Origin: Branchiostoma floridae | Lineage: Eukaryota > Chordata > Leptocardii > Amphioxiformes > Branchiostomatidae | Assembly (NCBI RefSeq): GCF_000003815.2 | Contig: NC_049995.1 | Span: forward strand, 7,672,395-7,736,394 | Length of the DNA stretch: 64,000 nt | Reading direction: 5' to 3' | Part shown: positions 15,836 through 36,885 of the stretch, in pieces | Layout of the letters: each line of letters opens with the position of its first letter | Position numbering within the stretch: the first letter of the stretch is position 1 | Made by a program: the position numbers and the translations under genes | Notes under the pieces: generated by a model | Databases searched by the model: none | What the model was told of the DNA's origin: nothing | Seen by the model: the letters and a program-made list of their open reading frames with translations, nothing else

Positions 15836-16221
15836 TTGTAATAAATTATAATTGTTGACTTCATTTTGAATGCTGATTATGAATTTAAACAAATTTGACA
15901 TAATGTTGTAACAAATTTGACGATTGAACGTTTTCTTCTTCAGTTGCTATTTCTTATCATCCAAGCAGCCTAAGTAGCTCACAGTCTTGAAATACAGTAA
16001 GGCTAATTTAGATAGGAGAAATGGGGAGGATTTCCTTCTGGGGGTAATTGCAAGAAAGAGCCCAAGGCGATCGGGGCTGTCTAATTTAGTGTTTGCCCAC
16101 AGAAAACCATGATAAGGAGTTGTTTAACATTCAGTAGGAGTCGGTGGGTCGGGGCCTTCACTGATGAAGTGAAGTGAGGGCTCATTTCCTGTAGAATCCC
16201 CCAAACACACACCTGCTCTGA

Positions 16222-16815
16222 TTAACCTTCAGGAAATGCATGGTCTTCTTAACCTTCTTCGTGCCGAGGAAGCCCTTTTGGCACAGAATTTTATTGTTTA
16301 TGGGGTAAGGTACTAGTAAGAAGACGGTTAAATTCTTCCAAGATTTCAAAGTTGTGATTAAAAAAGCCAATTTTAACGTTTAGGCAATACAGGGTCTACT
16401 TAACCTTCTTGTGCCGAGGTAGCCCTGTTGCCACAGAATTGTACTGCTTATGGGTTAGGTAATAAGAAAGTTAAATTCTACCGTCCAAGATTTCAGAGTT
16501 GTGTTAAGAAAAGCCAATTTTATTGACCTTCAGGCAATACAGGGTTTTCTTAACCTTCTTCGTGCCAAGGTAGCCCTTTTGGCACAGAACTGTACTGTTT
16601 ATGGGGTTAGGTAGTGTAAAGATGGTTAAATTCTACTTAGATTTCAAAGTTGTGTGAAGAGAAACCAATTTTGTTAACCTTCAGGCAATACAGGGTTGTC
16701 ATAACCTTCTTCTTGCCGAGGTAGCCCTTTTGGCACAGAATTGTACTTCTTTATGGGATTCTGTAGTAAGAAGATGGTTAAATTCTACCTAGATTTCAAA
16801 GTTTGATAAGAAAAG
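16222..16815 (+). repeat. Four-copy ~150-bp tandem repeat
   Basis: Unit: accttcaggcaatacagggt, cttaaccttcttcgtgccga, ggtagcccttttggcacaga, then ggttaaattctac and agatttcaaagttgtg. Starts near 16222, 16377, 16524 and 16676; a decayed fifth follows. Confidence 0.9.
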
Positions 16816-17364
16816 CCATTTTGTGTTGTGTCTGCTTTTTAGATAAAGTGCTGGGCGATTTGCGTAGTCTTTACCTTTTTGGCACTGAATTTGTATCATT
16901 TAGATTTATTGGGAAGAAATGGGGAAATTTGGTTTTGCATTGCCAAATGGCTGCTTTGTACACAAGTGCAGATTTCTGATGTAGATAACTTAGGGCAATT
17001 TCTGCACTTTTCGTAATAAGTCTCATTCAATTAGCTCTAAACTAGATTCAAGGCTTGTTTCATATGGACTGTTATTGTTTTAGAAAAGAACTATCATGAT
17101 AATATCTTTAAAATGAACTTAGGATCATTAATAAATTAGCACTTAAGACAAATGATAAAGCAGAAAATATAGACTCAGCACAATTGGGGGACTTATTTTT
17201 ATTTGCCAAAAGATATAGAAATAAATAAATAAAACTGCTGCAGCGTCAAAGTCTATCTTGGACTACTGACAGCATTTGTGTTGCAATTTATTGAGCATCA
17301 GGGATATCGATGTTTAGCACAAAGGACAGCAGTATAGATTAAAGCTTGAAGGTCATCCACAGTA

Positions 17365-18290
17365 ATTTTGAAGGTTATTCAGCACCAAGGACAGCATGTT
17401 TACAACAGTAGTGTTGAAGCTTGTTTAGCACATAGGACAGCACTGTTCTATATGACAGAAATGTTGAAGGTCATTCAGCACCAAGGACAGCAGTATTATA
17501 TGACAGTAGTGTTGAAGGTCCATCAGCACCAAGGACAGCATGTTTACAACAGTAGTGTTGAAACTTGTTTAGCACCAAAGACAGCACTGTTCTACTAGTA
17601 TATGACAGAAATGTTGAAGGTTATTCAGCACCAAGGACAGCAGTGTTATATGACAGTAGTGTTGAAGGTCAATCAGCACCAAGGACAGCATGTTTACAAC
17701 GGTAGTGTTGAAACTTGTTTAGCACATAGGATAGCACTGTTCTATATGACAGAAATGTTGAAGGTTATTCAGCACCAAGGACAGCAGTATCAATCAGCAC
17801 CAAGGACAGCATGTTTACAACAGTAGTGTTGAAGCTCGTTTAGCGCATAGGATGGCACTGTTCTATATGACAGTTATGTTGAAAGTTATTCAGCACCAAG
17901 GACAGCAGTGTTTTCTAGAATAGTAATTTTACAGGTCAATTAGCACCAAGGACAGCACTATTCTGTATGACAGTAACAGTTAATGCTTAAGCTTATTCAG
18001 CACCATGGATAACACTGTTCTATATGACAGTAGTGTTGAATGTCATTCAGCACCAAGGACAGCAATGTTTTCTAAAACAATAATCTTAAAAGTCAATTAG
18101 CACCAAGGACAGCACTATTTTGTATGACAGTAATGTTGAAGGTCATTTAGCACCAAGGACAGCAGTGTTTTTTAAAATAGTAATTTTACAGGTAATTTAG
18201 CACCAAGGACAGCAGTGTTTTTCTAAGATAGTAATTTTACAGGTCAGTTAACACCAAGGACATCACTGTCCTATTAAAACATTTGTCCAG
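17365..18290 (+). repeat. ~47-bp minisatellite, about 20 copies
   Basis: The core cagcaccaaggacagca recurs every ~45-50 bases with tgttctatatgacagtagtg and ttgaaggtcatt between. Higher-order alternation of three variants is visible at 17380-17880. Open frames through it are a by-product of the repeat. Confidence 0.93.
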
Positions 18291-18654
18291 GGTTGTTGTG
18301 GCCAGAAGAAAGTTCAATTTGAAAAGTTGTTTTAGGTCATTCAGCACCATGGATAGCAATGTTATGACAACTGACATGTGAAGGCCACTTTTCACATTAG
18401 ATAAGATTGATATGCACGATTGAAAGCCCTTCTCTGATATTCAAGGTAATCTCTATGGAAACACCACAAACATTGCTAGCAGCATCAATAACAAGTGCTT
18501 CCTTCTATACTTTGATAGAGTTATTCAATTCAGTTCTATTCATTTTTCAATCAACTTGCACGAGCAATAGAGTATATATGTATACACCACTGAATTGGGT
18601 TGATTTTTGAAGAAAAAAAAATGTTTTACACATAACAACAAGCCAATCAAAACG

Positions 18655-19085
18655 TATGTGCAGAAATACATGAAAAGAAGATATACAAAATACCAAACAC
18701 TAAGTCACAAGGATGTCATATTATGTATTACCATGGGCCAAACTTATGGACCAAAAATATAAGATGATTAATGTAAAGTAAGTCACATCCAGTCACTGAA
18801 GGACTAGAATCAAAAAGTATACAATCATATGAAAATAAGATACATGTAATACCAAGTCACAAGAACGTCATATCATGTATTACCATGGGCCAAAAATACG
18901 AGATGATTGATGTACAGAGTGTCATATACAGTCACTGAAGGGCTAAAATCAAAAAGTATACAATCATATGAAAATAAGATACATGTAATACCAAGTCACA
19001 AGAACGTCATATCATGTATTACCATGGGCCAAAAATACGAGATGATTGATGTACAGTGAGTCATATAGAGTCACTGAAGGACACA
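18655..19085 (+). repeat. Three-copy ~150-bp tandem repeat
   Basis: Unit contains tatacaatcatatgaaaata, agatacatgtaataccaagt, cacaagaacgtcatatcatg, ttaccatgggccaaaaatac and gatgattgatgtacag. The last two copies are nearly identical; the first is diverged. Confidence 0.9.
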
Positions 19086-19307
19086 GGAAGCATGTCGAGA
19101 CTATCTTGGCTGGCCTAAGTGCAGTTTAATGGAGCGACTAATGATGGTGAGAGGCAGGGCTGAGGAGTGTGTGCATCACTCACTAACCACTTTCCTGCCA
19201 AGGTACATGTGCTGATGTGGGGAAGGCTATTCCCTGTAGACTTCAATCAAACAATGGGGGGATGTTTCCTCGCAAACGTTTCACACTAGGGGAAGTCCAG
19301 CAGTAAT

Positions 19308-20070
19308 GCAAAACTACCGAGGTCACGGGTAAAGTTCTCATCACTCGGTATCTAGTGATGAAGTCGCGTCGTCACTGGCTTACCAGTGGGTAATATTTAT
19401 CGTCACTAGTTTTCCAGTGATGAGGAAACTTCAGCTGGTAAACCAGTGACGACAAATATTCAGTTTACTGAAGAAAAAGGAATCATCGTTTCAGTTGAGG
19501 GGATTTCAAAGTTAGCACTTAAAGTTATACTAACGTCGCCTCTGCAAGTCCTCACACTCCCGGACCAAATCTAACAGTTAAACACGGCTATGGCGACATG
19601 TGAATAAGGGTGTTTTTGTTGCACATCGAACTCAGCACTGTAACGTTCTAGTGCTATTAGAACGTGGTCACTGGAAGCCCAGTGCCGAAATAATTTCATC
19701 ACTTGGTGTCCAGTGCCGAAGAGTCACCGATCACTGGAAAACCCAGTGAGGAACCGGTGACCTCGATGGTTCCGCACTCGGTGTCCAGTGACGAATGACG
19801 TTCATCACTGGGGCCCCGAGTGACGAGCGGAGTTCATCACTGGGTCCCGAGTGACGAGCAGAGTTCATCACTGGAAACCGAGTGACGAGTCAAGGTTCAT
19901 CACTGGAATTCCAGTGCCGAGAGAGCTTCATCACTGGAACAAAGCAATTCATCACTGGGAAACCAGTGACGAACTTTCTTCGGCACTGGGCGTCCAGTGA
20001 TGACGCCATTTTGAATATAGTTTCGTCACTGGAAGCCCAGTGAGGAACCCGTGACCCGCGTAGCCTTGCA
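19308..20070. mobile_element. TIR element filled with CACTGG..CCAGTG hairpins
   Basis: Ends tgcaaaactaccgaggtcac and (complement of right end) tgcaaggctacgcgggtcac are inverted repeats. Both flanks carry gcagtaat (19300-19307 and 20071-20078), a 7-8 bp target duplication that fits hAT-like elements. The inside has many short palindromes of the form cactgg-n-ccagtg or cactgg-n-gagtgacgag, in two subterminal clusters (19340-19470 and 19655-20045). No ORF. Confidence 0.82.
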
Positions 20071-20335: not shown

Positions 20336-23267
20336 ATCGTTGTATAGTAAATGCAAGTTGTAGACTGTAAGATTTCATTCACTCACACTGGGATGGACCC
20401 CGACTCTTTTTCATGAATGTGGTGGGATCCGTAGAATTCTCTTTACTGTATACAAACTCACTACCAGGAAAAACATATAGACTCTGTTTGGAAGAAGTAA
20501 TTATGACATCTTTATATTGGTATATATTATGTATCTTGTAGTATTGGCTTGAGAGTTCCTGTTAGTTAGACATATACAGGCAGTCAGAAGTCAACTGTTA
20601 ACAGTTGTTAGCTTATTAGGAAAAAATTGTCTCAGAAATCAACTTAAGAAACAAAGCTAAGTAAAAGTCACTTTCATTTTACTGCAAGAACCTTCATTCT
20701 CAGTCCCAGATCATGCCACAGTAGATCGATAGTGCCAGGTTTGCTAAATTTGTTAGCAGTATTTGAACTCTTTGCTTGGATGCTTGATATGTATTCCGAG
20801 CATTTTCACCATACATGACTTGCATATGGCTCGCATTGCAAAATCAGGCTACACCTATTCTATTTGTCAGTTCTTAATTCAAGAAAAAAAATCATGCTGA
20901 CCATGAAAACAGAATCTGAGAGGAAGTTGGTACCCTCAAGTTGATGTACACAGTTTCATATGTGTCATATGTAACTAAGGACTACTAATTTTCTAGCCTT
21001 TTATTCAAAGTGCCAAGAAAATGAATTCCAAACAGTTTGAAATATCTTGCTGCAGCCTGCAATCTGCAAGTGACTGCCAAAATTGCAGGCCAGGCATAAA
21101 ATTTCCAATCCATCAATTCTCCAGCTCAAAAGAAAAAGCGGCTGCGATATTCTATGTGATCGTCCAACGCCGCAACAAATTGTCAGCATACTTTGACTTT
21201 GATTTGGCATATATTCAGATGCTGGTGTTGCATTCTAATGTAGTGATAGGGCACTGGCATCTGCTGATGCATATACTATAACTATCGAATAAAACTGCTG
21301 AGTGAGTGAAGTGAATTCAAACAAGGTGACAGTGTAATATATACTTCTCTGACAGTGATATTTTCCTATTTGGAAGTTGATGATTTTGCTCTGAGGACCC
21401 CACTTTCATGTTATTATTATTAATAACCAAGCACAATGCATGCCGTTGTTATTTGCACAGATGGTACAGATATTTTGCTTAATCATGAGAATATACATTG
21501 ATGTGCTGTCAAATGATGTCCATGGGGAACCTATGTTTTTAATGAGGTTGCTTGGTAACTGAACAAGCGATGGGAAGCATGTGTACTGTCAATCTGTCAT
21601 GTTATTATCACACTTCCTACAGATGTGTTTCACCATGGTACATAAGTGGCAACATCCCCTACTTATATAATGTGCTGTAATGGTTTGTTGTGTTAAGTGG
21701 TAGCAAAGGAGACTGCAAGTGTTTATTGTACAAAATGTATTTAGACAGGATGTCTCGATCTTAAACTTTAAAGCAAATGTGTTAATAACCAAGGAATATA
21801 TTCAAATGAAAGTTCATCTGTACATGTGTTGGTAGCCTCCGTAGTTGTAAAGTTAAAACTTTGTTCCAACACAAAAGAAGAAAAACTCACCATAAATTTT
21901 TGGTAAAACACACAAACACTTATATTAGTTTGTGTAATTGTACTGGCTAAGGTACGCAGGTGTAGTTTTATGTTTACATGTGCAAAGATTGAAATCAATG
22001 ATACGTAAGTTAAAACGTTACATGAAAAACGTTACATAGAAAACTTGTCCAAATAAAGTTGACAGCAAAATCATCAGAGGAACATTGGCAAGAAAAACTG
22101 CATCCAGCAAGTGCTTCTTTGTCCTACATTTTACTATTTATTTGCCGGCAGTAAATTCTCTTTTCTTCCTGACTTACAATTCATTCCAATCCTCTTTAGA
22201 GTTTCACAGCAGTTTTTTTTTTGGTTCCTAGGAAGGACATGGCCCTTGTTGCAAAGTAAAATACTAGTAGATCGTTTGATCATTTATGGCTGTTTTGTAG
22301 CTTTTCTTACAGTGTTGTATTTTGCAGTAACTAAGGAAGGCACTCATCTGTTCCTAAGAATGTTAGATATTGTGATGGTTTTATGGTTATTGTACTGTGT
22401 GACCAAGTTTTTATTACAGTTTATTTTCCAGTTACCATAGAAACTTTTATTTGTTGATTCTTACTCACAAATCGTATAACTATAAGGGTGAAGGTTACAA
22501 ACAAAGTGTTTTGTGACCTATTTTTCTAGTGATTGACTTATTTTTGCTACCCTCTACAATTCTCAGTTCTGCCACAAAAAGTGACAAACATAGATATTAT
22601 GGATATGACATATGCTACAGACTCCAAATATAATGCAAGCTTGGTGTGATAAAAAGACAAGATGGATACAAAATAGGATGCCTAATCTTTCAAAACATTG
22701 TAACAAGAACTGAAGCGACAAAACATGGTATCACAGCCAACAACTCTTGTATTCCATAAGCGCACACAGTGACACTTAGTGTGGCAGTCTAGTATCACTT
22801 TACCATCATGATAAAAAACCCTTGCTGTGGCCTAAATGCTATGTGGGTTAATGGGTGTACAGTATTCCATATGGACGGAATCAGGGACTGTGATATATGG
22901 ATGGATGTGTTGGCGATATCAATATAACTCTAGTCTCACTCAGTAAAAAAAATGCAGACCAGTGGAAAAAATTAGCAGTAAGTGACTCAAAGAAATGGCA
23001 ATGTACTGAAAGAAGTCACTCTGCGATTGTCATTTTCTCGCCAATAATTACTTGTAGTAAGTTGTACTGGGAAAGAATTTGAGCGAGGAAAATAGGGAAA
23101 AAAGAGTTTCTTGAAACAGGTTTAAAGACAAGACAGGAAAGAAAATTTCCGAAAAATAACCAAAAAGATGATTTTTTTCCACCAGGTATTAGCAATGAAA
23201 GAATCTATAATTTGTTTGGTAGACACACTAAAAATTTTTTTTTTTTAATTTAACATCATATTACGCA
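20336..23267. other. AT-rich non-coding stretch
   Basis: No supported exon. A 109-codon hydrophobic ORF (22111-22440) is present but AT-rich, without recognised motifs or splice context, and may be chance. Confidence 0.4.
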
Positions 23268-23474
23268 AGTTCTCCTTTATCCGGGGTAACCTACATGTAT
23301 GTCCGTTGTTTTACAAACCGTGGTTTCAAATTGCGATATTTTCACAATATTTCAGTGAACCCGACATTTTCAAAATTTTGCAGATTGAAACCACTGGCCG
23401 TCAAATTGACATCCCTAAATACCCTGTTTTTAAACACAACGGATATAGGATACCCCTCGAATTAAGGGGAACTA
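23268..23474. mobile_element. Family A palindromic MITE
   Basis: agttctcctttatccggggt ... gaattaaggggaact ends, with internal catccctaaataccctgttt. Confidence 0.78.
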
Positions 23475-23759
23475 ACAATAGTTTCTCTCCTTACCATGTT
23501 GAAATATTTATCTCTCTGTGGAGGTAAGTGGGTCAGCCCCGCTGTGATGATAAGCAGAGATAATCCAGTATTGAGCCCACAGGAAACTGATGAAAGACTT
23601 TGTAATACACGTCATTACAAAGGATCAACCTGCCAGGGTTTTAAATACATCAATCAGCGTAGGCGTCTACGTCTGAATATTTAAACTTCTTCCTACAGAT
23701 TTTATTAGTTATGAGGCTAGGCAAAATGAAGTAGGTTAATCATTGCATTGCAGAAATCA

Positions 23760-24285
23760 AAGTCTGAAACAAAAGCAGCCCCTGCAGTTCCAAGAAAAAT
23801 AGCCAGGGGGCCCAAACCCAATCTCTGTCCAATGAGCTATTTACTGTAAATGCATGTAAATTTGTGGGGATTTGCTTTTGTGGTAGCGGGAAAATGGAGT
23901 GAATGCGGTGGTTTTAAGTTTGCGGTAACACCATAGACTGCAGTCTCATACTATAATGGAAAAATGTTTGTGGTGGTTTTAAGTTCGCGGTGAAGTGGTC
24001 ACCGCAAAAACCGTGAACATAAAACCACCGTGAACATTTCTACATTTACAGTACTGCTTATAAATCATGATCCTAGCATGCCAATAGAACTAGAAAGCTA
24101 CCAGGAGTCCCATTATCAAACTTGACCTTCCCAACACCTTATCATACAGTGTATAACCCACCTATTAATGATATATCTGATCATTAACATCCATCCACAG
24201 ATTCCCGACTTATGCTGTCCACACACACACAGACACCAATGGCACCTAATAAAACATAACTTTCTTGGGGAAGATAATTACAATA
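23760..24285 (-). repeat. Family B repeat split by family C MITE
   Basis: Minus-strand family B: cagcccctgcagttcc...gccagggggcccaaac up to 23841, then continuing at 24054 (taccaggagtcccattatc...catccatccacag...aaaacataactttcttgggg). The interruption is the TA-flanked element 23844-24051. Confidence 0.72.
23844..24051. mobile_element. Family C MITE (TA target site)
   Basis: ctgtaaatgca ... tgtagaaatg and catttacag inverted ends, TA at 23842-23843 and 24052-24053. Interior tgcggtggttttaag and ttcgcggtgaagtggtcacc repeats. Related copies at 27813-28039 and 60932-61139. Confidence 0.83.
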
Positions 24286-24581
24286 CACATGACTGTAGCA
24301 TCGATTTCCTTTTTACCTGAGGGTGATATTTGAAGGCCATAATCAGCTTGCTACACTGGGTTATGGTGTGGTCTCATTTGTCATATGTCAATGTTATAGA
24401 ATTTACAAGTAGGTTGTTAGAGATCCAACTGCCAACAAAGATCTACCATAGCCATTTCTGTTGGACAGCTGAGTTTTGCTGGACACATGAATGACTATGC
24501 TCTCAATTTGTGATCACAAGACAGTTGTATAACATTATGACTTGAGGCTCTTAGTGAGACAAGATGTAACACATGTAACGA

Positions 24582-24660
24582 GGGGTGGGTACCAGTACAG
24601 AAAATTCAGGTACAGGTACGGGTCGGACATGAACCTGGACCCGATTTTCTGTAAAAACTT
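24582..24660. repeat. Fragment of the ggtaccggtacagaaaattcagg repeat
   Basis: ggtaccagtacagaaaattc and aggtacaggtacgggtcgga match the end of the element at 31289-31709 on the other strand. Confidence 0.55.
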
Positions 24661-24722
24661 TAGAATGCGCGATTTTTCCTACAAAGGACTCTACTTAATG
24701 GAGTGTCTGACTTCCACTGGCA

Positions 24723-24822
24723 NNNNNNNNNNNNNNNNNNNNNNNNNNNNNNNNNNNNNNNNNNNNNNNNNNNNNNNNNNNNNNNNNNNNNNNNNNNNNN
24801 NNNNNNNNNNNNNNNNNNNNNN
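24723..24822. other. Assembly gap (100 N)
   Basis: Exactly 100 N, so the true distance is unknown; SLCO exons could be missing here. Confidence 1.
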
Positions 24823-24955
24823 AGTGGGGCAAGCATATTTGCAAGTTGATTGGTTAAGAGCGGTAATTTGTTGCAAAATTTAGAATGGAGTCTATTGAGA
24901 CAATGGCTCAGACATACATGAAACAGTACTGTTGATTAAAAATTTGCATGTAATG

Positions 24956-25340
24956 TATTGTTCAGGGGGGCAGGTTTCCTCCTATGTGCCTTGGTCCTTG
25001 GCTCGCATGGTCTGCCTCAACATGTGCCCTGCCTAACATGTGCCCTGTACTAACATGTATGTAATGTATTGTACAGGTGGGCAGGTTTCCCCCTATGTGC
25101 CTTGGTCCTGGGCTCGGGTGCCCTGCCCCAACATGTGCCCTGCCCAACATGTGCCCTGTACTAACTTGTATGTAATGTATTGGACAGGTGGGCAGGTTTC
25201 CTCCTATGTGCCTTGTTCCTGGAACTATGTGCCCTGCCCCAACATGTGCCCTGTACTAACTTGTACATAATGGATTGTACAGGTGGGCAGGTTTCCTCCC
25301 ATGTGCCCTGTACTAACTTGGACATAATGTATTTTACAGG
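24956..25340 (+). repeat. Tandem decoy 3' splice sites before the damaged SLCO exon
   Basis: Four degenerate copies, followed by the exon as fifth. Each unit (about 55-110 bases) has TGTAATGTATTGTACAG, an acceptor, then the exon start (gtgggcaggtttcctcctatgtgcc). Most copies also carry TGTACTAACxTG, a perfect TACTAAC-type branch point about 25 bases before the AG. Copies start near 24956, 25065, 25175, 25268 and 25326. They shorten toward the true exon, and the earlier ones keep TGTGCC where the exon has TGAGCC. Confidence 0.85.
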
Positions 25341-25529
25341 TGGGCAGGGTTCCTCCTATGAGCCTTGTTCCTGGTACTATGTGCCCTGCCCATCCTGGCC
25401 TTCCCGGGCACGCTGCCCAAGGTGCTGCGGATGGAGAAGACGTACCACCTGACGGCCGAGGGCACGTAGGAGGAAGGGGACGGCCGCACGCTCCAGAACG
25501 AGGGCATCACGCACATGAGCTTTGGCAAG
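25341..25529 (+). pseudogene. SLCO: SLCO exon (TM6 region) with two in-frame stops
   Basis: Frame starting TGG at 25341 reads WAGFLL, a stop, [20 protein letters not shown], then [11 protein letters not shown], a second stop (TAG, 25467-25469), and GITHMSFGK. This matches the OATP segment after the WVGAWW signature (a short TM, then a P-x-x-LP motif). The first stop (TGA, 25359-25361) is a one-base change from TGT, which three of the four upstream decoy copies keep. The exon seems to end at GGCAA before GTA (25530), but that phase does not fit the next exon (27575 needs phase 1), so an exon may be hidden in the adjacent 468-base gap. Either this copy is a broken relic and the working exon lies in the gap, or the stops are assembly errors at the gap edge. 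Confidence 0.6.
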
Positions 25530-28500
25530 TANNNNNNNNNNNNNNNNNNNNNNNNNNNNNNNNNNNNNNNNNNNNNNNNNNNNNNNNNNNNNNNNNNNNN
25601 NNNNNNNNNNNNNNNNNNNNNNNNNNNNNNNNNNNNNNNNNNNNNNNNNNNNNNNNNNNNNNNNNNNNNNNNNNNNNNNNNNNNNNNNNNNNNNNNNNNN
25701 NNNNNNNNNNNNNNNNNNNNNNNNNNNNNNNNNNNNNNNNNNNNNNNNNNNNNNNNNNNNNNNNNNNNNNNNNNNNNNNNNNNNNNNNNNNNNNNNNNNN
25801 NNNNNNNNNNNNNNNNNNNNNNNNNNNNNNNNNNNNNNNNNNNNNNNNNNNNNNNNNNNNNNNNNNNNNNNNNNNNNNNNNNNNNNNNNNNNNNNNNNNN
25901 NNNNNNNNNNNNNNNNNNNNNNNNNNNNNNNNNNNNNNNNNNNNNNNNNNNNNNNNNNNNNNNNNNNNNNNNNNNNNNNNNNNNNNNNNNNNNNNNNNNG
26001 ATTGTTTGTTTGTTTGTTTGTTTGTCCCACAGACATCCCCCATGCTGTGATGAGCCTGTGCACCAACGTGCCTTACCTGTGTACCATATTGATTGTTTGT
26101 TTGTTTGTTTGTTTGTCTCACAGACATCCCCCATGCTGTGATGAGCCTGTGCACCAACGTGCCTTACCTGTGTACCATATTGATTGTTTGTTTGTTTGTT
26201 TGTTTGTTTGTCTCACAGACATCCCCCATGCTGTGATGAGCCTGTGCACCAACGTGCCTTACCTGTGTACCATATTGATTGTTTGTTTGTTTGTTTGTTT
26301 GTTTGTCTCACAGACATCCCCCATGCTGTGATGAGCCTGTGCACCAACGTGCCTTACCTGTGTATCATATTGATTGATTGTTTGTTTGTTTGTTTGTTTG
26401 TTTGTCTCACAGACATCCCCCATGCTGTGATGAGCCTGTGCACCAACGTGCCTTACCTGTGTACCATATTGATTGTTTGTTTGTTTGTTTGTTTGTTTGT
26501 CTCACAGACATCCCCCATGCTGTGATGAGCCTGTGCACCAACTTGCCTTACCTGTGTATCATATTGATTGATTGTTTGTTTGTTTGTTTGTTTGTTTGTC
26601 CCACAGACATCCCCCACGCAGTGGAGCCTGTGCACCAACTTGCCTTACCTGTGTATCATATTGATTGATTGTTTGTTTGTTTGTTTGTTTGTTTGTCCCA
26701 CAGACATCCCCCACGCAGTGATGAGCCTGTGCACCAACGTGCCTTACCTGTGTATCATATTGATTGATTGTTTGTTTGTTTGTTTGTTTGTCCCACAGAC
26801 ATCCCCCACGCTGTGATGAGCCTGTGCACCAACGTGCCTTACCTGTGTATCATATTGACTGATTGATTGATTGTTTGTTTGTTTGTTTGTTTGTTTGTCC
26901 CCCAGACATCCCCCATGCAGTGATGAGCCTGTGCACCAACGTGCCTTACCTGTGTATCATATTGATTGATTGTTTGTTTGTTTGTTTGTCCCACAGACAT
27001 CCCCCATGCTGTGATGAGCCTGTGCACCAACGTGCCTTACCTGTGTATCATATTGATTGATTGTTTGTTTGTTTGTTTGTTTGTTTGTCCCCCAGACATC
27101 CCCCATGCAGTGATGAGCCTGTGCACCAACGTGCCTTACCTGTGTATCATATTGATTGATTGTTTGTTTGTTTGTTTGTTTGTTTGTCCCCCAGACATCC
27201 CCCATGCAGTGATGAGCCTGTGCACCAACGTGCCTTACCTGTGTATCATATTGATTGATTGTTTGTTTGTTTGTTTGTTCCACAGACATCCCCCATGCTG
27301 TGATGAGCCTGTGCACCAACGTGCCTTACCTGTGTATCATATTGATTGATTGTTTGTTTGTTTGTTTGTTTGTTTGTCCCACAGACATCCCCCATGCTGT
27401 GATGAGCCTGTGCACCAACGTGCCTTACCTGTGTATCATATTGATTGATTGTTTGTTTGTTTGTTTGTTCCACAGACATCCCCCATGCTGTGATGAGCCT
27501 GTGCACCAACGTGCCTTACCTGTGTATCATATTGATTGATTGTTTGTTTGTTTGTTTGTTTGTTTGTCCCACAGACATCCCCCATGCAGTGATGAGCCTG
27601 TGCACCAACGTGCCTTACCTGTGTATCAGCCTGTGTGCCACCATGGAGCTGTCTGTCGTCACCGGCTTCATCACCTTTGTACCCAAGTTCCTGGAGTCCC
27701 AGTTTGGAGTCTCTGCTTCGGAGGCTAACCTCCTCACAGGTACTGTAAATGTCCTTAACTTGGTGATTTGATTCCACTGTAAGGAGACAATGAAGTGTTT
27801 GCTATGGTATTACTGTAAATGCAGAAATGTTCGCGGTGGATTAATGTTCGCGGTTTTGTGGTGACCACTTAACCGTGAACTTAAAACCGCCGCGAACATT
27901 TTTCTATTATGGTATTATACTGCAGTCTACCGTGTTACGATCTTCTATGACAAGAGTCGAAGAAGATCGTGTTTATACCGCGAAATTCAAACCACCGCAA
28001 AAAGTCCTTTGTCCTTCTACAGTGAAATTAATAATACAGTAACTTAAAGTTTGTATTAGTGCTATAGTCACTTGTTGTAAAGTAAATTATGGAAACACTA
28101 ATGGTGGTTTAAGTTCATGGTTCATAGAACCACAGCAAAAAATTTAAGGGATTACAGTCAACACTCAAGCTATCATACTTAATAGTATTACCATTTTCTA
28201 GGCAAAAAGGGAAATACTTTCAAACCTATACCACCACTACATAAGGACCACCAGGACAATATGACCGCTTTTTGATGGTTCTGTAGATAATTTTCTTTTG
28301 ACACAAGCAATAAGAATCCTGCAACCACATAAACCAGACTTAATTGTGTGCCAAGAATCGAGCCAGAGACCTCTTGATCTTGTGTCCTATAGCTAAGCCA
28401 CCTAATGATAAGTTCAGTTTAGTTCAGTCATCATCATCATCTTCATCAGTTGCTGCGTTCTGCATCTATAGTCTTTTGAAAGTCCTATAGCTGCATTCAG

Positions 28501-31500
28501 TCTTTCTTCATCCTTTTCCAGTGTGCTTTGCATCCTGCAAGCTTCCTTAGCTCCTCAGCTGTTTCTTTGCTGTTGTAGGAAAAGCTCGACCTCTGTGCTT
28601 TAGGTCTGCTTTCAGCAGGCTGAGCAGGTTGACACAATGTCTTCCCTTGCATGTCTTGAATCTGTTAGAACCTAGAATGGCGAAATCAAGAGCTTTTTGT
28701 GCAGGTGTGTCTTGTTGCATCCTGAGGATGTGTCCAAGCATAGACCACATTGATTGCTCGGCTTTTTCTAAGGTATGGTGTTACAGATACAGTTAGATAG
28801 TTCAGTCATCCTGATGATAAACAGCATCTTTTATTTCCCCTCCCCAGGAGTGGTGATCATCCCCAGTGCAGGCGGTGGCATCCTGCTGGGCGGTTACATC
28901 ATGAACCGGCTCAAGCTGGATCTGAAGGGCGCGGCGCAGTGGTCGCTGGTCAGCGCCGTCGTGTCGCTCATCTGCCTCGCCACGCTGTTCACCGTGGGCT
29001 GCCACACTATCAACATAGGGGGGCTCACCATTCCCTATAGTGACAGGTCAGTGAAAATGATTGTAGATATATGTGTTAGAATGTCATGTTTGATTGGTCA
29101 GGATAAGAAGTACAAGAGTGTTGATTGGTTGGAACATGTACTGTAATGGGCTGTCACACTATCAACATGAGGGGTTCACCAATCTCTATAGTGACAGGTG
29201 ATCTCTATGAATATTACAATGCCATGTCTGATTGGTCAGGATAAGAAGTACAAGAGTTTTGATTGGTTGGAACATGTACTGTAATGGGCTGTCACACTAT
29301 CAACATGAGGGGTTCACCAATCTCTATAGTGACAGGTGATCTCTATGAATATTACAATGTCATGTCTGATTGGTCAGGATAAGAAGTACAAGAGTTTTGA
29401 TTGGTTGGAAGTTGGAACATATAGTGAGCTGTCACACTATCAACATGAGTTGTTCACCAATATCTATAGTGACAGGTGACTTTCTTTATGAATATTATAT
29501 AATGTCATGTCTGATTGGTCAGGATAAGAAGTACAAGAGTGTTGATTGGTTGAAATATAGGATGGGCTGTCAAACTATCGACGTGAGGGGGGCTCACCAT
29601 TCCCTATGGTGACAGGTCAGTGTCTTGATATAGTAGTTCAAGCGGAGTTAAAATTCAGATCATGAAAAGCTATGCATGTGATATACTTTGATATTTCCCT
29701 TGGAACTCTGATGAAATTCACCATTTAATCTTTAACTAAAGTATCACCTAGTGATGTTGAAAATTGGAAGTGAGCAGAATTGAATGGAATTCAAATGAAA
29801 GTGAGTGCTGCAACGTAGAAATTACTGACAAGTGACAACCACTTTTACTGTTAACATTCTACGAGGGGCATTCAATAAGTTATGCCCCTGACTCACTTCC
29901 AGTTGTTTGATCTTAATGAAATTTTGCATTTGTAATGATTTATATCTCTATGAATTATGTTGCAAAAAACAGCTCTGAACTAATTGTGGTTTCTGATGTA
30001 CTGGTGTTTGAACAGAGTCAGGTGTGAAATGGAACAGGTGTGAAATGGAGCCAGTTGAGTGTCGCGCAGTGATACGGTTTTTGTATTTGAAAGGACGCAA
30101 ACCAAAGAAGACTTTTGATGAAATGAAAGAAACTTATGGTGATGATGCCCCATCATATGACCTTGTAAAACGCTCGCATCGTGAATTTAAACATGGCCGT
30201 AAGTCTGTGGAAACAGCTCCCAAACCTGGTCGTCCCTCTTCTGCCATTGATGAGGCATCTGTTGGAGGACCAACCTGGGGTCTTCTATAAAAACGGTGTC
30301 CAGAGCTGCATCAAACGATGGAAGAAATGCATAACTCTGGGTGGTTTCTATATAGAGAACGACTAATAACTGTGCCAAGTTTCATTAATCTCCTGCTATG
30401 GGAAGTGGGTCAGGGGCATTACTCATTGAACGCCCCTCGTACAACCTTTACAATAAGTGATGCAAAATGAAAAGCTTTTAAATAACTCTTATCAACCGAA
30501 ACTCATAAGAGCGTTCCACACACGACATGTCAGTTCCTGTCATCGTGTGAATCAGTCCAAATTCTGAGGAAAATGCCAAATAATCTGCCAGGATGTTGCT
30601 CCATGCAACACTAGTACTGTAATTCACGAAACTTTTGTGGTGGTTTTATTTTTGTGGTGACCTCTCTACCACCATTTCATGACATTGTGAATGAAGCATT
30701 TCCACTGTACATGTATTATTACTGTAGTATAAATTGTTGTAAAATGCTGCTCAAATTACTAGAATGTTGCTCCATGCAACACTACATGTAGTACACTAGT
30801 ACAGTAACTGTAATTCACAAAACATTTGTGATTGTGTTATTTTTGGGTGATCTCTGTACCGTAATTTCATGACAGTGTAAATATGCTTTTCCATTGTGTC
30901 AATACTGTAATATAATTGTTTCAAACACAATTTGATATACCCTACAAAAACCACTTCTCACTCCCACTGTATAATTGTAAGACCATTGCAAAAGAAAATA
31001 GATTTACGGTATGCCCTTCAAAACAACCTGTCAATTCAGTTCACAGACAAGAATAATGTAGATAACAACTTATTGATCTTTTACTGCGCATAGCTGCCAT
31101 AACCTCCCCCATCAAATACAGGGAATAGAATAATGGACCTGTGTGGTTAGGGATTAAAAAAGGCCTTGAAAATGCTGACGTTTTACTTTTGGGACTTATT
31201 ATCTATGAGCAGGGACATCCAGCTATACTGTAGCTGCAGTGCAGTGTGAACCAGCCAGAATTACCCTGAGGAAATACTTTTTTGTGTGTAGGGCACCGGT
31301 ACAAAACCGGTTTTTCATATTGGACCGGTCCGGAAAAAACGGACATGAAAAAAATAGGTGGACCGGATGTTGGACCTATTAGAAAATTAACAGATTATTT
31401 CATCAGGCATTTACACGTTTTGGCGCTTGCTGGTGGAAGAAAATAACAAGAGTGAAGTAGAGTAGAGTTTATAGTCATTTCTACCAAGTTTTACAGTCAA

Positions 31501-34500
31501 TCGTACAGGTGCAGCTAGCTTTGTACGATTTTAAAACGCTGGTGTAAGCCTAATACTCCACCAAACGGATTTCTTTGTAGTGAAATGGACCATTGCTATG
31601 AGTCATACTGAATCAGGTCCAGGTTCAGGTCCGAACCTGAACCTGATCCTCTGGACCTGAACCGGACCTGGACCTGAATTTTCTGTACCGGTACTCACGC
31701 CTAGTTGTGTGCAAAGAGACTTGTTACGATTCCGTAAAACCATCTAAATTTGAACTTAGATTTAAAGATGTCTAGTACCATGATCTAGCCTGGGTACCAT
31801 CCAGAAAGTAGTTCGCTCTGGCATTTATTATATACTATATACATTCACTTCTCTGCTGTTCCGTCTAGGAACCTTGACCATTTCAATGTCTGGAATCGTC
31901 CAAAGAGAATGCTTTGGCGAGATAAAGTCAGTCAGTCAGTCGAGGACATCAGATGTCAACATTGGGGCTAAAATATCCACCATTCCAGTTAAAATGACCC
32001 CAACTTTTCTTTGACAAAATCAGTACAATTATTGAATTAAGATGCTTAGATGGGCACATTGGTGCCACATTAATTTTTATTTGGGTCTAATTCAATTAAC
32101 CCACTTCCTCTAAGTCCTGTCGTCTGCTGTTTGCTGTTTTATCAATATTTCCATAAGATAATGGTTACCCCATCTCCTTCCCGGAGTCCTCAGGGACACA
32201 GCAAACCAAGTTGTCTTCTTGTTCCCGGGAAGGTCATCTACTGGGATAAAGGAGAACTAGATACTAAATGTAGATAGCTGTAAAGTGCAGACAGACATAG
32301 GTTTGGACTTTTCCCTTGCTGTAGATTTGTTAACATTTGCAGCAGTTTTATTTTGCAATAGTCGGAAAAAAGGTTTTCACACTATTGTAAATTTGCTTTG
32401 AAAACAGTTGTTTCATGTAGTACTGTAGTCATAAAAAGAGACATATTCGTGGTGTCATGGAAATGTGCTAGAGAGGTCACCACAAAAATAAATTCATTGT
32501 GAAAGTTTGTAGATTTACAGTATTATAAACATCCTTCTCTAACGATCAGACTTGGCGTGAAGTTTTTTTTGTCTAATTCTGGTACACATATTAAGTGGTG
32601 CCAGCTGGTTTTAGCTTTGAGTGTTACACTTGAAAGATATTTAATGAAGCAAAGGATTGGATTATATCTACTGGTATATACATGTACATTTGTATGGACA
32701 GAGCCGCACGGAAGCGAAGTGTGAAGACTGGGCGACTTCTGCCTACCCATGTCAGGGACCCCAGCAGCAGTATAATCAAATAATGTATACTACTATTATA
32801 TATCATTCCCAGCTTCGAGCTTTGTGTGCCCTTAGGTGATACAATTACATATTTGTAGTCTTCACTCTTTTTATTTATTGTGGTTTCTGATTTCATTTTC
32901 TATTATGGTGCCAAGGGTCTTGAGATGTGATAACTGAATGTTGTAAGATGAGTCATTCTGTTACTGGTGATACAATTGACATATTTGTAGTCTTCACTCT
33001 CCATATTTATTGTGGTTGGTAATTTCATTTTCTATTATGGTTCCAAGGGTCTTGATATGTGATAACTGAATGTTGTAGGATGATTCATTCTGTTAGTATC
33101 CTGGGTAATATCATTTAGTTTCTTGAGCTAGGTAACTGTAGGTCAAACATGACTCGTAGCGAGCAGTCTTCTTGATCTTAATGTTGTTGCAGATCTGTAG
33201 TGTGTCTTAACTAAGTTGGTACTGTAAATTGTGAAATTTTTGCAGAAGTTTTGTATTTGTGGTAACAGTCTACAGCAAATTTATGACATCGTGAATATGA
33301 AGAAGAACTTTATTGCACGTCAATTGTACATGGTACAAAGTATGGCAACAGCTATTACATAAAGTACAAAAAAAAAGAGGTAAAGGATAAAGCTTAACAT
33401 CCTAGTTAACATAACAATAAGGGCTAACATAATTCATTTATATAGTATCATAATGAAGTAGGTTAATCATTTAGCTTCAGTATTCTTTCTAATAACAAAG
33501 CAGTCCTTGATATATTTGCGTGTGTTTAATGTATTACTACTGAACTACAGCATTGTTTCAACTGTTAACTTAGAATACTGCAAAAACCTCTTACTAAAAA
33601 TGAAGCCCCTTTGAAAAAAAGCAAACTTACAGTACTTTGTATTAAACTTGTCTGTACTGAACTTACTAACATTTCATTACCTTTTTATATGTCATCATAC
33701 AGGTGTTTCTGTGCTTTCTTGCAATTAATTAGCTTCAGTGGTACGTTCCAAGTAAAGGTTGTTTTTTATGTGTTTTCTGGTTTGTACCGTTTGCTTCTTG
33801 CCACTGGTGGTAAATGGTACAAAGTAGAAAGCCAGACAAAAATACCTAAAAACAGCTGGAGAAAAACCTCTTCCTTGAGAATGCCTTTGGCCATGAGATT
33901 GCAATGGAATAAAGATTTATGATTTTTAAGAGTTTTTAATGGTATTCTTTTTTTGGGTGCGTTTCCAGTCCCAACTTTGACCACCAGGCACCCAGTGAGT
34001 TCACAGCCAACTGTAACTTGGACTGTGACTGTCAAAAATAGCCGAAGCCAAACCTCTGCTTGAAGAATACCCTTTTCATGAGATTTGATTAAGATTCACC
34101 AAGAGTTTTTAATGGTATTCTTTTTTTGGGTGCGTTTCCAGTCCCAACTTTGACCACCAGGCACCCAGTGAGTTCACAGCCAACTGTAACCTGCACTGTG
34201 ACTGTGCCATCCACTCGTACTCCCCCGTCTGTGGCTCAGATGGTATCACCTACTTCAGCCCCTGCCATGCAGGCTGTCATAAAGTCACCAACTTTCTATG
34301 GGACGGACAGACCACCAAATATGTGAGTTAACAATCTCATTAAAAACAACAACTTTGTTGTCATAAAAAAGTTGATCTTAGTTTAGCACACCATACAGCT
34401 AATCTTCCATTGGTTGTGACAGAGAAGTCAAATGCTTTTTAGCAGAATTTACAGGTTCAAATTTGTTTTATCATGGAAATTTCACTCGTTTTGAAAAGTA

Positions 34501-36885
34501 CAATGATCAGTTGACTGTGCGTGCATGATGGGTGAGCGACATGTGGCCACGGGTGCGCCCTTGGGCAGGCTTCAGAATATTGCTGGCGTCTATGTTAATA
34601 TTATTGTTGACTACTTTGTAGAAAAAGGTGAGGCGGTACTTAAATCATTTTCTTCAAATCCTTTGAGTGGTCACTAAAGTCAAGACAAGCATTCTTGCCA
34701 TTCTTTTTCCATCTCTCTTTGCTTAAGAATTTTGAATACATGTAGGTGAGGTTCTTGCATTTCCTTTGTGAATCACTAGGAGGTGCTGCTGATCAGTAAC
34801 ATGCCTGTATTATCCCCCTTACAGAACTACACTGACTGCAGCTGTGTAGCAGTTGTCTCTGTGGAAACCATCAACACCAAGAAGTACCGCATCGAGGAGC
34901 AGAAACTGAGATATGGAGGCCATGTCATCACAGGTAGGGCTATACCATTGGAGTCAAAATTATTTAAGTGAAAGTTTATAGCAAGTTCATGCCCGGGGGC
35001 TAATTGCAAGTACATGGTGGAAACATAGGAGATGTACAAGTGACAATGAATGGTGATAAACATTATTGTAAAAATAGGCTACTCGAATCCTATTGTTGAC
35101 TATTTCTAAACAGGTTGGGTTTGACTTCTTTTTTGGAAGCAGAGGAAGATGAAGTTCCTCACTTTTTCTACAATTTTTGGGTTCTGCGATTTTTAAAAAA
35201 TTTCAAAATAGCCTTAAGTTAGTATCTACAAGTCATTAGATCTCTCTTTATATCAGAAACGTTGTCTCTGTATCTGCACAATATTTGGTTTTTGAGAAAA
35301 TATAATTTACTGACAATGTGATTCATGATCTCAGTCAAACAAAGAATGTCTCTCCATCATATACATGTAAGTTATAGCCCCATGGCTTTATTGCTTGACT
35401 CAGACTAAGTTGTCTTCTCCTAGTTGTTTGTGGCTGATGTGATGATTTTTGTTCTGTGACAGGAAAATGTCACCGTGACTGCGGCACGCTGGCGCCGTTT
35501 CTGGTGTTCCTGTTCATCGTAACCTTCATCACCTGCTGCGCACAAGTGCCTGCCATGATGGTCACCCTCAGGTAAGGGCGCCGCTTTGTTTACTGGTTTG
35601 TATGTTTATTGTCATTGTCTAAGTCGAGATGTGGAGACAGGAACATGTGGAGACGCTGGTGTTACCTCTCTAAGGATGAACTGAACTGAACTGAAGTCGA
35701 GAAGGTTGTTTTTGTCTGATCTCATGGAGGTCAGCAATCAGACCCGAACGGCATCCTGCAATGCCCAACCATCGTAAGACGGGAACAACGGACACTTAAC
35801 TGATTTAAACATGTCTCTAGTCTTGGATCAAGCAAGTTTAACAATCTAGCCACAGCGAATTTGCAGATTTTGCTAAGACAAATGTGGTAATGAATATGTT
35901 TTTTTTCTCTGCCCTCCCCATATATACAGGTCAGTGAAGAAGGAGGAGCGACCCTTTGCCCTTGGCATCCAGTTTGTCCTCTTCCGAACACTTGGTGAGT
36001 ATTGCCTTTGATACACATACATGTAGAAGTATGCACTTTTTCTTCACACAGAAGTGGCAATATTGGCCAAGATTCTATATTTATACATCTTGGATACATC
36101 CATGCCTTATGTACGACATTTACACAGTAAATTAGAACTTATCAGCTAGGCTCAGCAAGGATACTTGGTTAATAGCATACTTTGATCCTAGTAAGAGAAT
36201 TCTGTGCCATTTTCATATCAGCCAGTGGTTGAAGTAGTTAGTAGTTGCAATGTAGTTACAATGTAAAAAAAAATGCATTTTCACAAGTCACTGGTGATCC
36301 AATTTATTACATGTATTCCCATGTTTGCCCTTCACCCCTATATGTAAGGAGAATAAACAAACAAACAAACAAACAAACAAACGTTTATATGTAACTGACA
36401 TACAGTATGAAACATCAGAAAATTACAAATGTCTAATTCTGCACCTGTTCCACCCAGCCTACATTCCCGCCCCAATCTACTACGGTGCCACCATCGACAC
36501 GGCCTGCATTCTGTGGCAGCCGCTGTGCAACGGCGACAAAGGTGCATGCTGGGAATACGACGCCACCCGCTTCCGATTCCTCTACTTCGGCCTGTCCGCC
36601 GGGCTCAAGGCCATGTCCGTACTCTTCGTGTTCATGACGTGGATATCCCTGCGAAGAGCGGCCACAGAATACGTCGAGGACGCAGAAAACAGGAACACTG
36701 ATCCGAGCAACGGCTCGACGTTTAGCGAGGAGGGAGCGGTGGGGTACGACGTATCATACGACGTGTCATTGGACGAAACGAGAACCACAATCCTCAGTGA
36801 GGACGGTAACATTAGTTTCCAATCACCGAGATCACTATGTCCGCCTCTACAAGACGGAATCTTAGCGTACGAGAGTCATGTCTGA
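25341..36885 (+). CDS. SLCO: Organic anion transporter polypeptide (SLCO/OATP, SLCO3A1-like), 3' part of gene
   Basis: Multi-exon gene for a 12-TM plasma-membrane exchanger of amphipathic organic anions. Clean exons are 27575-27739, 28848-29046, 34142-34322, 34825-34933, 35463-35571, 35930-35994 and 36458-36885. All junctions are GT-AG and the phases join without a break into 417 residues plus stop. A damaged exon lies at 25341-25529. Family marks, in order: [19 protein letters not shown] (TM7-TM8 region), a glycine-rich TM8 segment, the Cys-rich Kazal-type loop with [13 protein letters not shown], then [21 protein letters not shown] split over two exons, and CILWQ before the last TM. OATPs are usually about 650-720 aa, so roughly 300 N-terminal residues lie upstream of the window, in gaps, or unseen. 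The C-terminal half resembles SLCO3A1 most, from memory; the subfamily is not proven. Four exons carry tandem decoy copies of their splice junctions. Confidence 0.9.
25532..25999. other. Assembly gap (468 N)
   Basis: Lies between the damaged SLCO exon and the decoy acceptor array; it probably holds more array units and possibly an exon. Confidence 1.
26000..27574 (+). repeat. Array of 16 decoy 3' splice sites plus truncated SLCO exon
   Basis: Seventeen near-identical units, of which the last runs into the real exon at 27575. Each has a branch-point-like attgattgatt, a (GTTT)n tract, an acceptor (CCCACAG, CTCACAG, CCCCCAG or TCCACAG) and the first ~58 exon bases up to CTGTGTAxC, then returns to intron. 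Decoy exon starts: 26033, 26124, 26219, 26314, 26413, 26508, 26607, 26704, 26799, 26906, 26997, 27096, 27195, 27286, 27385, 27476. Most spacings are 91, 95, 99 or 107, that is, they differ by GTTT tetramers. The unit at 26607 has a 4-base exon deletion. The array begins inside the preceding gap, so copy number is a minimum. Confidence 0.95.
27575..27739 (+). CDS. SLCO: SLCO exon, TM7 region
   Basis: Acceptor CCCACAG, donor ACAG/GTACTG. It begins in mid-codon (two bases) and ends phase 1. It encodes [20 protein letters not shown], then a hydrophobic helix and [21 protein letters not shown], the conserved OATP TM7-TM8 link. The first ~58 bases are the part duplicated 16 times upstream. Confidence 0.92.
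27813..28039. mobile_element. Family C MITE
   Basis: ctgtaaatgcagaaatgttc gcggtgg at the left, ...ataatacag at the right, TA on both sides (27811-27812, 28040-28041). Lies in the SLCO intron after exon 27739. Confidence 0.8.
28325..28405 (-). mobile_element. tRNA-derived SINE remnant
   Basis: On the minus strand: ggtggcttagctataggaca (A-box-like), then aagaggtctctggctcgatt (B-box-like), at tRNA spacing. No cloverleaf is conserved, so it is not a tRNA gene. Confidence 0.5.
28430..28770 (-). pseudogene. Degenerate non-LTR retrotransposon ORF2 tail
   Basis: Minus-strand peptide (28547-28750) reads [25 protein letters not shown]..., then [14 protein letters not shown]. This is the GHxLRMxxDTPAxKAL ... 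LLxLLxxDL pattern at the C-terminal end of LINE reverse-transcriptase ORFs. The frame is broken after 28547, where the homologous reading continues in another frame ([17 protein letters not shown]). It sits inside an SLCO intron. Confidence 0.7.
28848..29046 (+). CDS. SLCO: SLCO exon, TM8-TM9 region
   Basis: Acceptor TCCCCAG, donor GACAG/GTCAGTG. It encodes [20 protein letters not shown] followed by a helix with [15 protein letters not shown] and [16 protein letters not shown]. The Gly-rich stretch is the OATP TM8 motif. GC content is much higher than in flanking introns. Its last ~50 bases plus the donor are repeated four times downstream. Confidence 0.93.
29144..29634 (+). repeat. Four decoy 5' splice sites after SLCO exon 28848-29046
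   Basis: About 140-base units in tandem. Each copies the last ~50 bases of the exon (gggctgtcacactatcaaca...), the GTGACAG/GT donor and ~90 bases of intron (atgtctgattggtcaggataagaag). Copies start near 29144, 29285, 29421 and 29562. The true exon end and its donor (29046) form the first member. All four decoy donors keep GT; the last is identical to the true donor (GTCAGTG). Confidence 0.92.
29862..30439. mobile_element. Internally deleted mariner element
   Basis: Terminal inverted repeats cgaggggcattcaataagtt / ...cattgaacgcccctcg, with TA at 29860-29861 and 30440-30441 as in all Tc1/mariner insertions. About 578 bases against ~1.3 kb for full elements. Carries both ends of a transposase with the catalytic middle missing. 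Confidence 0.9.
30045..30366 (+). pseudogene. Mariner transposase, internal deletion
   Basis: [20 protein letters not shown] and the following [20 protein letters not shown], then [15 protein letters not shown], are the N-terminal helix-turn-helix (HTH_48 type) and linker of mariner transposases. The frame then jumps: [27 protein letters not shown], in another frame up to 30366, is the usual C-terminus (RWxKCIxLxGxYxE). The DDD catalytic domain between is deleted, so it cannot be active. Confidence 0.85.
30615..30920. repeat. Family C-like fragments, duplicated
   Basis: Two related ~120-base pieces (ctgtaattcacgaaac...gtggtggttttatttttgtg; ctgtaattcacaaaac) with ttgctccatgcaacacta between. 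Further pieces at 32412-32520 and 33219-33295. Confidence 0.55.
31289..31709. mobile_element. Non-autonomous inverted-repeat element
   Basis: Left gggcaccggtacaaaaccgg, right ttttctgtaccggtactcac gcctag; the interior has repeated ggtccaggttcagg/cctgaacc motifs. A partner fragment is at 24582-24660. Confidence 0.6.
32830..33097 (+). repeat. Tandem duplication, ~132-bp unit
   Basis: ggtgatacaatt...acatatttgtagtcttcactc...ccaagggtcttga...gtgataactgaatgttgta, twice (starts near 32835 and 32965). Confidence 0.88.
33298..33420 (+). mobile_element. Retroelement tail fragment
   Basis: gaagaagaactttattgcac, gtcaattgtacatggtacaa, agtatggcaacagc: a relative of 8804-8938 in the opposite orientation. 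Confidence 0.45.
33848..34141 (+). repeat. Duplicated 3' splice site of the SLCO Kazal exon
   Basis: A unit of about 185-190 bases (intron end, acceptor gcgtttccag and 65 exon bases) occurs twice. The upstream decoy acceptor ends at 33968 and its truncated exon spans 33969-34033 before it runs into a copy of the intron. Decoy and real exon starts are almost identical. Confidence 0.93.
34142..34322 (+). CDS. SLCO: SLCO exon, Kazal-type extracellular loop
   Basis: Acceptor TTTCCAG, donor TAT/GTGAGT, ends phase 0. It encodes [39 protein letters not shown] and [17 protein letters not shown]. The spaced cysteines with [10 protein letters not shown] are the Kazal-like fold in the large loop between TM9 and TM10 of all OATPs. 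The first 65 bases and the acceptor also occur as a decoy copy at 33969-34033. Confidence 0.95.
34825..34933 (+). CDS. SLCO: SLCO exon, end of Kazal loop
   Basis: Acceptor CTTACAG, donor ACAG/GTAGGG, phase 0 in and 1 out. It encodes [20 protein letters not shown] and [16 protein letters not shown]. The NYT sequon and DCSC motif are typical of the end of the OATP TM9-TM10 loop. Confidence 0.94.
35463..35571 (+). CDS. SLCO: SLCO exon, TM10
   Basis: Acceptor GTGACAG, donor CAG/GTAAGG, phase 1 in and 2 out. It encodes [20 protein letters not shown], then [16 protein letters not shown]: the last loop cysteines (KCxxxC) followed by TM10. This segment is strongly SLCO3A1-like from memory. Confidence 0.94.
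35930..35994 (+). CDS. SLCO: SLCO exon, TM10-TM11 link
   Basis: Acceptor TATACAG, donor TTG/GTGAGT, phase 2 in and 1 out. It encodes [22 protein letters not shown]. The [10 protein letters not shown] motif is one of the best conserved OATP stretches. Confidence 0.93.
36357..36381 (+). repeat. (AAAC)n microsatellite
   Basis: Six aaac tetramers just upstream of the SLCO terminal exon. Confidence 0.9.
36458..36885 (+). CDS. SLCO: SLCO terminal exon, TM11-TM12 and cytosolic tail
   Basis: Acceptor CCACCCAG; stop TGA at 36883-36885. It begins [20 protein letters not shown], continues with [20 protein letters not shown] and a final helix [11 protein letters not shown], then an acidic, Ser/Thr-rich cytosolic tail of about 75 residues ending [18 protein letters not shown] and CWEYD are family hallmarks. 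No close AATAAA follows the stop; a possible signal (ttcaataaagg) lies near 39763, so the 3' UTR may be long. Confidence 0.95.

Follow-up and report, generated by a model that had tools for sequence, protein, structure and literature searches.

Tandem decoy splice sites at four borders of an OATP transporter gene of amphioxus, one of them a probable large acceptor mirage

The window analysed here is a stretch of 64,000 nucleotides of Branchiostoma floridae DNA, and the gene that hosts the repeat arrays described below is an OATP (SLCO) transporter, with OATP and Kazal domains in one gene. The eight exons in the window, when joined with the last exon partial and with X placed at stops and over the gap, match the Pfam entry OATP (PF03137) with 307.6 bits (cut-off 25.8; E=1.8e-91) and Kazal_2 (PF07648) with 37.2 bits (cut-off 22.8; E=3.2e-09); this agrees with an earlier model-made reading of the sequence alone, which had named the repeat-flanked exon as one of an OATP. 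That exon, E_b (27575-27739), matches the solved OATPs 1C1, 2A1, 1B1 and 1B3 (best E=0.00032). A motif scan of the window recovered no upstream exons. The second OATP exon should sit in a 100-N gap, judging from the position of its counterpart on C6, a contig of the same genome (513,431,437 bases) that carries a second copy of the locus. The parts of the gene are as follows, with the borders of E_e, E_f, E_g and E_h placed by eye:

C17:7671359-7671871, first (N-terminal) OATP exon, just left of the window
24723..24822, unstranded, 100-N gap expected to contain the exon corresponding to OATP profile 172-216, located by the position of the C6 counterpart
C6:17215082-17215234, C6 counterpart of the gap-hidden exon (OATP profile 172-216)
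25340..25531, plus strand, OATP exon E_a (WAGFLL...), with two in-frame stops, running into a 468-N gap
25532..25999, unstranded, assembly gap of 468 N by which the E_b array is truncated on its left, spanned on the C6 contig
27575..27739, plus strand, true OATP exon E_b, 165 bases, at the 17th acceptor, with donor CAG/GTACTG at 27740
28848..29046, plus strand, OATP exon E_c, with donor ACAG/GTCAGTG at 29047
34142..34322, plus strand, Kazal-domain exon E_d of the same OATP gene
34825..36885, plus strand, exons E_e (34825-34933), E_f (35463-35571), E_g (35930-35994) and E_h (from 36458 to the stop)

Over the last of these regions (34825..36885) TRF detected no array with a unit of more than 4 bases. 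An intron of the gene holds a Mariner/Mos1-type HTH_48 fragment (window 30012-30287; Pfam E=6.2e-08). Elsewhere in the window there is a cluster of other minisatellites at 16221-19939, with TRF periods from 31 to 157, where the motif scan likewise recovered no exons, and a tandem repeat at 63429-63595 of period 87 and 1.9 copies, which is possibly coding, its period being a multiple of three.

The main array lies directly before E_b. An exact-motif search of the whole window found 17 CAG/ACATCCCCCA acceptors from 26033 to 27575, spaced 91-107 bases apart, the last of which opens 27575-27739; the array is therefore as the sequence-only reading had described it, namely sixteen tandem decoy acceptors with the true exon as the last copy. 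ACATCCCCCA searched for without the AG again occurs 17 times in the whole window, so that the AG/ACATCCCCCA pattern did not overlook any copy whose AG is broken, and the intact AG claimed for every unit is kept by all 16 window decoys. TRF reports the region 26002-27628 with a period of 99, 16.9 copies, 92% matches and a score of 2627, which is far beyond chance. As the array starts at the edge of the 468-N gap, 16 decoys is a minimum.

26000..27574, plus strand, decoy 3' splice-site array of at least 16 copies, defined by motif search, TRF and unit alignment
26033, 26124, 26219, 26314, 26413, 26508, 26607, 26704, 26799, plus strand, acceptor positions, first part
26906, 26997, 27096, 27195, 27286, 27385, 27476, 27575, plus strand, remaining acceptor positions, the last being the true one
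27476..27574, plus strand, nearest (16th) decoy, the sole decoy of this array that keeps the frame open (+99 bases, 33 aa)

A unit of the array consists of 54 exon bases (ACATC...TGTATCA), then TATTGATTG(ATTG), a (TTTG)n tract and an acceptor of the CCCACAG type, which appears among the units as CTCACAG, CCCACAG, CCCCCAG or TTCCACAG. Each unit thus does carry the first exon bases, their length being 54 instead of the approximately 58 initially proposed. These exon parts are nearly identical, with 9 distinct sequences in the 17 window and 6 C6 copies, one of them bearing a 2-base deletion. This deletion gives unit 7 a length of 97 bases and makes it the exception to the proposed lengths of 91, 95, 99 and 107, in steps of four, which hold for 15 of the 16 units. 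The branch-point-like stretch proposed for each unit was recovered as a loose TTGAY or CTGAT match, about 30-50 bases upstream of the AG, at the 16 acceptors examined (26124-27575), and as nothing stricter.

Tandem copies of exon borders recur at three further borders of the same gene, a feature absent from the earlier reading, which brings the number to four in all. The copies are of the acceptor type at E_a, E_b and E_d, and of the donor type at E_c:

24948..25339, plus strand, second acceptor array, with decoys at 24966, 25077, 25188 and 25283 before E_a (25340), found by TRF and scoring
29076..29617, plus strand, four decoy donors consisting of the E_c 3' end and intron, at 29198, 29336, 29476 and 29616, TRF period 138
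33910..34035, plus strand, single decoy acceptor at 33969, a copy of the start of the Kazal exon E_d

The four E_a decoys score 1.0-3.9 and the true E_a acceptor 3.1; TACTAAC precedes the true site and every decoy but the first. The decoy donors of E_c score 6.9-8.6 in the window, as against 8.6 for the true donor, whereas the E_d decoy and its true acceptor score equally (8.1) and share 109 of 126 surrounding bases. If used, all four E_a decoys, the E_d decoy and all four E_c decoy donors of the window would bring in a stop, the window E_a having stops of its own in this test.

The phenomenon has already been named: tandem duplications of intron-exon borders are known in amphioxus as "mirages" (PMC3087553, PMC3902484), and the E_b array is a large example of them. 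According to the passages available from these papers, mirages occur in Adh3 and the globins BflGb6 and BflGb9 (PMC3087553), with PGBD5 and troponin C added by PMC3902484. They are of 3' and 5' types, have splice signals in many units and differ in length between alleles, and RT-PCR or earlier data are said to suggest regular splicing at them (PMC3087553, PMC3902484). Somatic instability is reported at the Adh3 mirage (PMC3087553). Like these, the E_b units span the border, comprising the intron end, the acceptor and 54 exon bases, the splice signals are kept (12.2-12.8 in 16 of 16 window decoys), and both types of border are duplicated in the gene. Local homogenisation from which outer copies are left out is a further trait of mirages; here the signs are mixed, neighbouring units being alike and a degenerate left copy being present on C6, while the outer copies stand apart in the E_c array of the window and not in that of C6. 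The differences from the published cases, as far as those passages describe them, are the size of the array, at least 16 decoys as against globin mirages of 6 and 3 units (PMC3087553), the involvement of four borders of one gene, and the presence of (TTTG)n within the unit. The passages of PMC3087553 and PMC3902484 contain no array of such length and no gene with four of them.

The acceptors of the main array are not distinguishable by score: the true site, at 12.2, falls at the lower end of the 12.2-12.8 range of the 16 decoys, which upholds their description as near-perfect sites, and only 27 of the 3601 AGs scored in the window reach 12.15, including all 17 of this array. The donors present a different picture. 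The true E_b donor, with a score of 4.3, is the best in 26000-27760, the best GT inside a unit reaching 0.8, and it lies 165 bases from the last acceptor and 264-1707 bases from the decoys. Donor strength separates the sites where acceptor strength does not, leaving the last acceptor as the only one that marks out a short exon (165 bases). The same donor is weak when set against the window as a whole, 393 of 4157 GTs scoring at least as high, and donor proximity may therefore be a poor guide. Use of 15 of the 16 decoys would lead to a stop, while the 16th (27476) would add 99 bases, or 33 residues, with the frame open.

As the best explanation, the array is very probably an amphioxus mirage with decoys that are by-products, and its last acceptor would most likely be selected by exon definition. 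The minisatellite would have been born by tandem duplication of an intron-exon border, its units being kept alike by unequal exchange and/or slippage. The decoys would remain outside the message, since exon definition would pick the last acceptor as the sole one at a normal exon length (165 bases) from the best donor, and the units, none of which has a well-scoring donor, would define no short exon. The direct basis of this explanation is the anatomy of the array, the acceptor scores, the want of good donors in the units, the stops behind 15 of 16 decoys and the second copy with five decoys; from these we infer that the second copy may be the other allele, that splicing would take place at the last site and that exchange may have shaped the units. 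It is unlikely that some decoys are instead used, either with the 16th acceptor giving a real 33-residue isoform or with unproductive transcripts tuning expression. This acceptor does score slightly above the true one (12.8 vs 12.2), and its 99 additional bases remain open where the other 15 decoys bring stops. However, the 33 residues, with their CLFV run, would probably precede the exon's own hydrophobic stretch, and the published mirages are reported, in the passages of PMC3087553 and PMC3902484, to splice regularly. Moreover, the nearest E_b decoy on C6 is 103 bases from the true site, a distance that breaks the frame, and this makes a conserved 33-residue isoform less likely.

The copy on the C6 contig follows window 22835-36385 collinearly through exons and introns alike, in pieces of 84 to 99.9% identity with unmatched stretches between them. 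It spans the 468-N gap of the window, and at E_b it has 5 decoys before the true acceptor and, to the left of these, an older copy that is degraded; four of the five decoys score 12.0-12.2 and the first 5.4. The other borders are affected here as well, with four E_a decoys, three E_c decoy donors (exact motif) and the E_d duplicate. One of the E_c decoy donors scores 12.5 as against 8.6 for the true donor, which means that the true site is not in every case the one favoured by strength and position. Among the E_a decoys of this copy there is apparently an insert (reverse-complement positions 17418-17812 of the 40 kb fetched), part of which is 85% identical to window 31786-31904. A comparison of codons between the two copies, covering E_a to E_g and leaving E_h aside, found only synonymous changes in E_b (5 of 5) and E_c (2 of 2), no changed codon in E_d, E_e and E_f, and no changed base in E_g. 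The seven changed codons of E_a comprise three synonymous changes, two replacements and two stops present in the window only. These data led us to reject a plain pseudogene: the E_a stops are absent on C6, the changes in E_b and E_c are synonymous only, and E_d, E_e, E_f and E_g are the same in both copies. Since a contig end is no more than 200 bases away from the stops, both a poor read and a null allele are possible.

Scaffolding on another chromosome-size contig, and an E_a without the stops of the window copy, could also point to a true paralogue, in which case a length polymorphism would not be shown. We regard this as improbable, because the homology extends from 100-N gap to 100-N gap (within a base or two), no match of at least 100 bases was found beyond the bounding gaps in the 40 kb fetched, and identity at one end is 99.6-99.9% across 3.5 kb that include introns. 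The gap-to-gap collinearity indicates that the C6 contig is probably the other haplotype, misplaced. The segment C6:17204286-17217961, bounded by 100-N gaps, looks like a misplaced haplotig and is likely to be an assembly fault.

If the C6 copy is the other allele, the array differs in length between alleles, with at least 16 decoys in the window and 5 on C6, which fits the earlier suggestion of a likely unstable minisatellite. Within the window array, neighbouring units are alike, the mean difference being 2.6 over 8 features, a value as low as which was obtained in 100 of 10000 shuffles. The last four units alternate between 91 and 99 bases, which suggests a recent two-unit duplication; together with the likeness of neighbours this fits unequal exchange or slippage. 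In the window E_c array GTCAGTG is present in the outer copies and lost in the three inner ones, a pattern that the C6 copy does not have. The difference in length between the copies also makes a pure assembly artefact, in which assembly lengthened a single or short repeat where a contig ends, unlikely, and on all the evidence we consider such an origin very improbable. It is true that the array adjoins the 468-N gap, that E_a just left of this gap has two stops absent on C6, so that contig ends may be poor, and that, in the passage available, one globin mirage was apparently aberrantly assembled in the draft (PMC3087553). Nevertheless, an array of this kind, with 5 decoys and variants of its own, is present on a separate contig, neighbouring units are more alike than shuffled ones, and three other borders show the same kind of structure. 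Finally, recursive splicing, with the decoys as ratchet sites that remove the intron stepwise, is extremely improbable, for although three of four window E_a decoys and the true E_a site have the juxtaposed form AG/GT, the main array reads AG/ACATCC at 17 of 17 sites, with no regenerated donor.

To see whether repeats are associated with exon borders in general, OATP exons were surveyed across the genome, yielding at least 113 exon hits, of which the 57 with 700-base flanks were testable. Border-crossing tandem copies were present at 5 of these 57, where random intervals gave 3.1 of 57 on average, and 5 or more were reached in 20.5% of 1000 random draws. The present gene and its C6 copy account for 4 of 7, two exons being counted in both copies, and their excess is a biased test as the gene was chosen for its array. 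Outside them the count is 1 of 50 with 2.0 expected, no commoner than chance, and about 8% of the sampled sequence (window and C6 included) is in such tandem copies. A special link between repeats and exon borders is thus unsupported, and the border repeats surveyed can be accounted for without a mechanism directed at splice sites. What is needed for those in the sample is a repeat-rich genome, frequent tandem duplication and tolerant splicing. The same detector found three border-crossing copies, 150-158 bases apart, at one of nine globin exon loci. These copies resemble the published BflGb6 haplotype 2, which makes it very likely that the published globin mirages come from the same animal; the BflGb9 mirage was not recovered among the nine globin exon loci of this genome.

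C17:3639958-3640182, OATP exon of another gene whose start and acceptor are copied once as a decoy, with 87.5% identity over 112 bases
C18:7180855-7181067, globin exon with three border-crossing copies

Outside amphioxus, Turri and colleagues reportedly described in 1995, to go by the title, an IFI6 (6-16) minisatellite with multiple splice donor sites. By that title it is a minisatellite multiplying a splice site and comparable to the E_c donor array; it multiplies donors, whereas the main array here multiplies acceptors, and use of these decoys is not expected. This title aside, nothing closer was found among the matches listed for minisatellites that carry splice sites in other organisms. 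A tandem genomic duplication can also lead to intron gain, when a duplicated exonic AGGT segment yields a new intron (review PMC3443670, in the passage available). That case is similar in that tandem duplication multiplies splice signals, but in the present gene it is an existing border that has been copied, with no sign of a new intron.

A closer experimental parallel in layout is provided by the duplicated beta-globin 3' sites (Reed and Maniatis 1986, used in PMC5389562), with an upstream 3' splice site and exon bases followed by a further site. As described in the available passage of PMC5389562, splicing in vitro was exclusively to the distal site; constructs in which the upstream site was followed by 14, 55 or 205 exon bases spliced very inefficiently, and splicing was inhibited when two 3' sites were occupied at once. 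Those constructs are man-made and have two sites, whereas the present array is natural, with at least 17 sites and 54 exon bases per decoy. By analogy, the in vitro result would be in line with splicing at the last site, and it hints that 17 equal sites might be costly if concurrent occupancy inhibits splicing. That passage mentions no donor further downstream, so something other than exon definition may be the reason for a preference for the last site. The array might even act as a length-variable brake, with at least 16 equal acceptors each taking up U2AF/U2, an idea that we hold to be improbable. If it were true, more copies would mean less splicing, with lower transporter output or non-productive forms, and alleles would differ in expression.

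With the mirage explanation, the locus is nature's counterpart of the classical experiment with duplicated 3' splice sites, having 17 sites of near-equal computed strength that differ mainly in their distance to the donor. There are apparently two alleles, one with 5 decoys and the other with at least 16, and the locus would reveal to what extent exon definition can prevail over many equal acceptors. Moreover, one gene of this amphioxus can carry four such borders at once.
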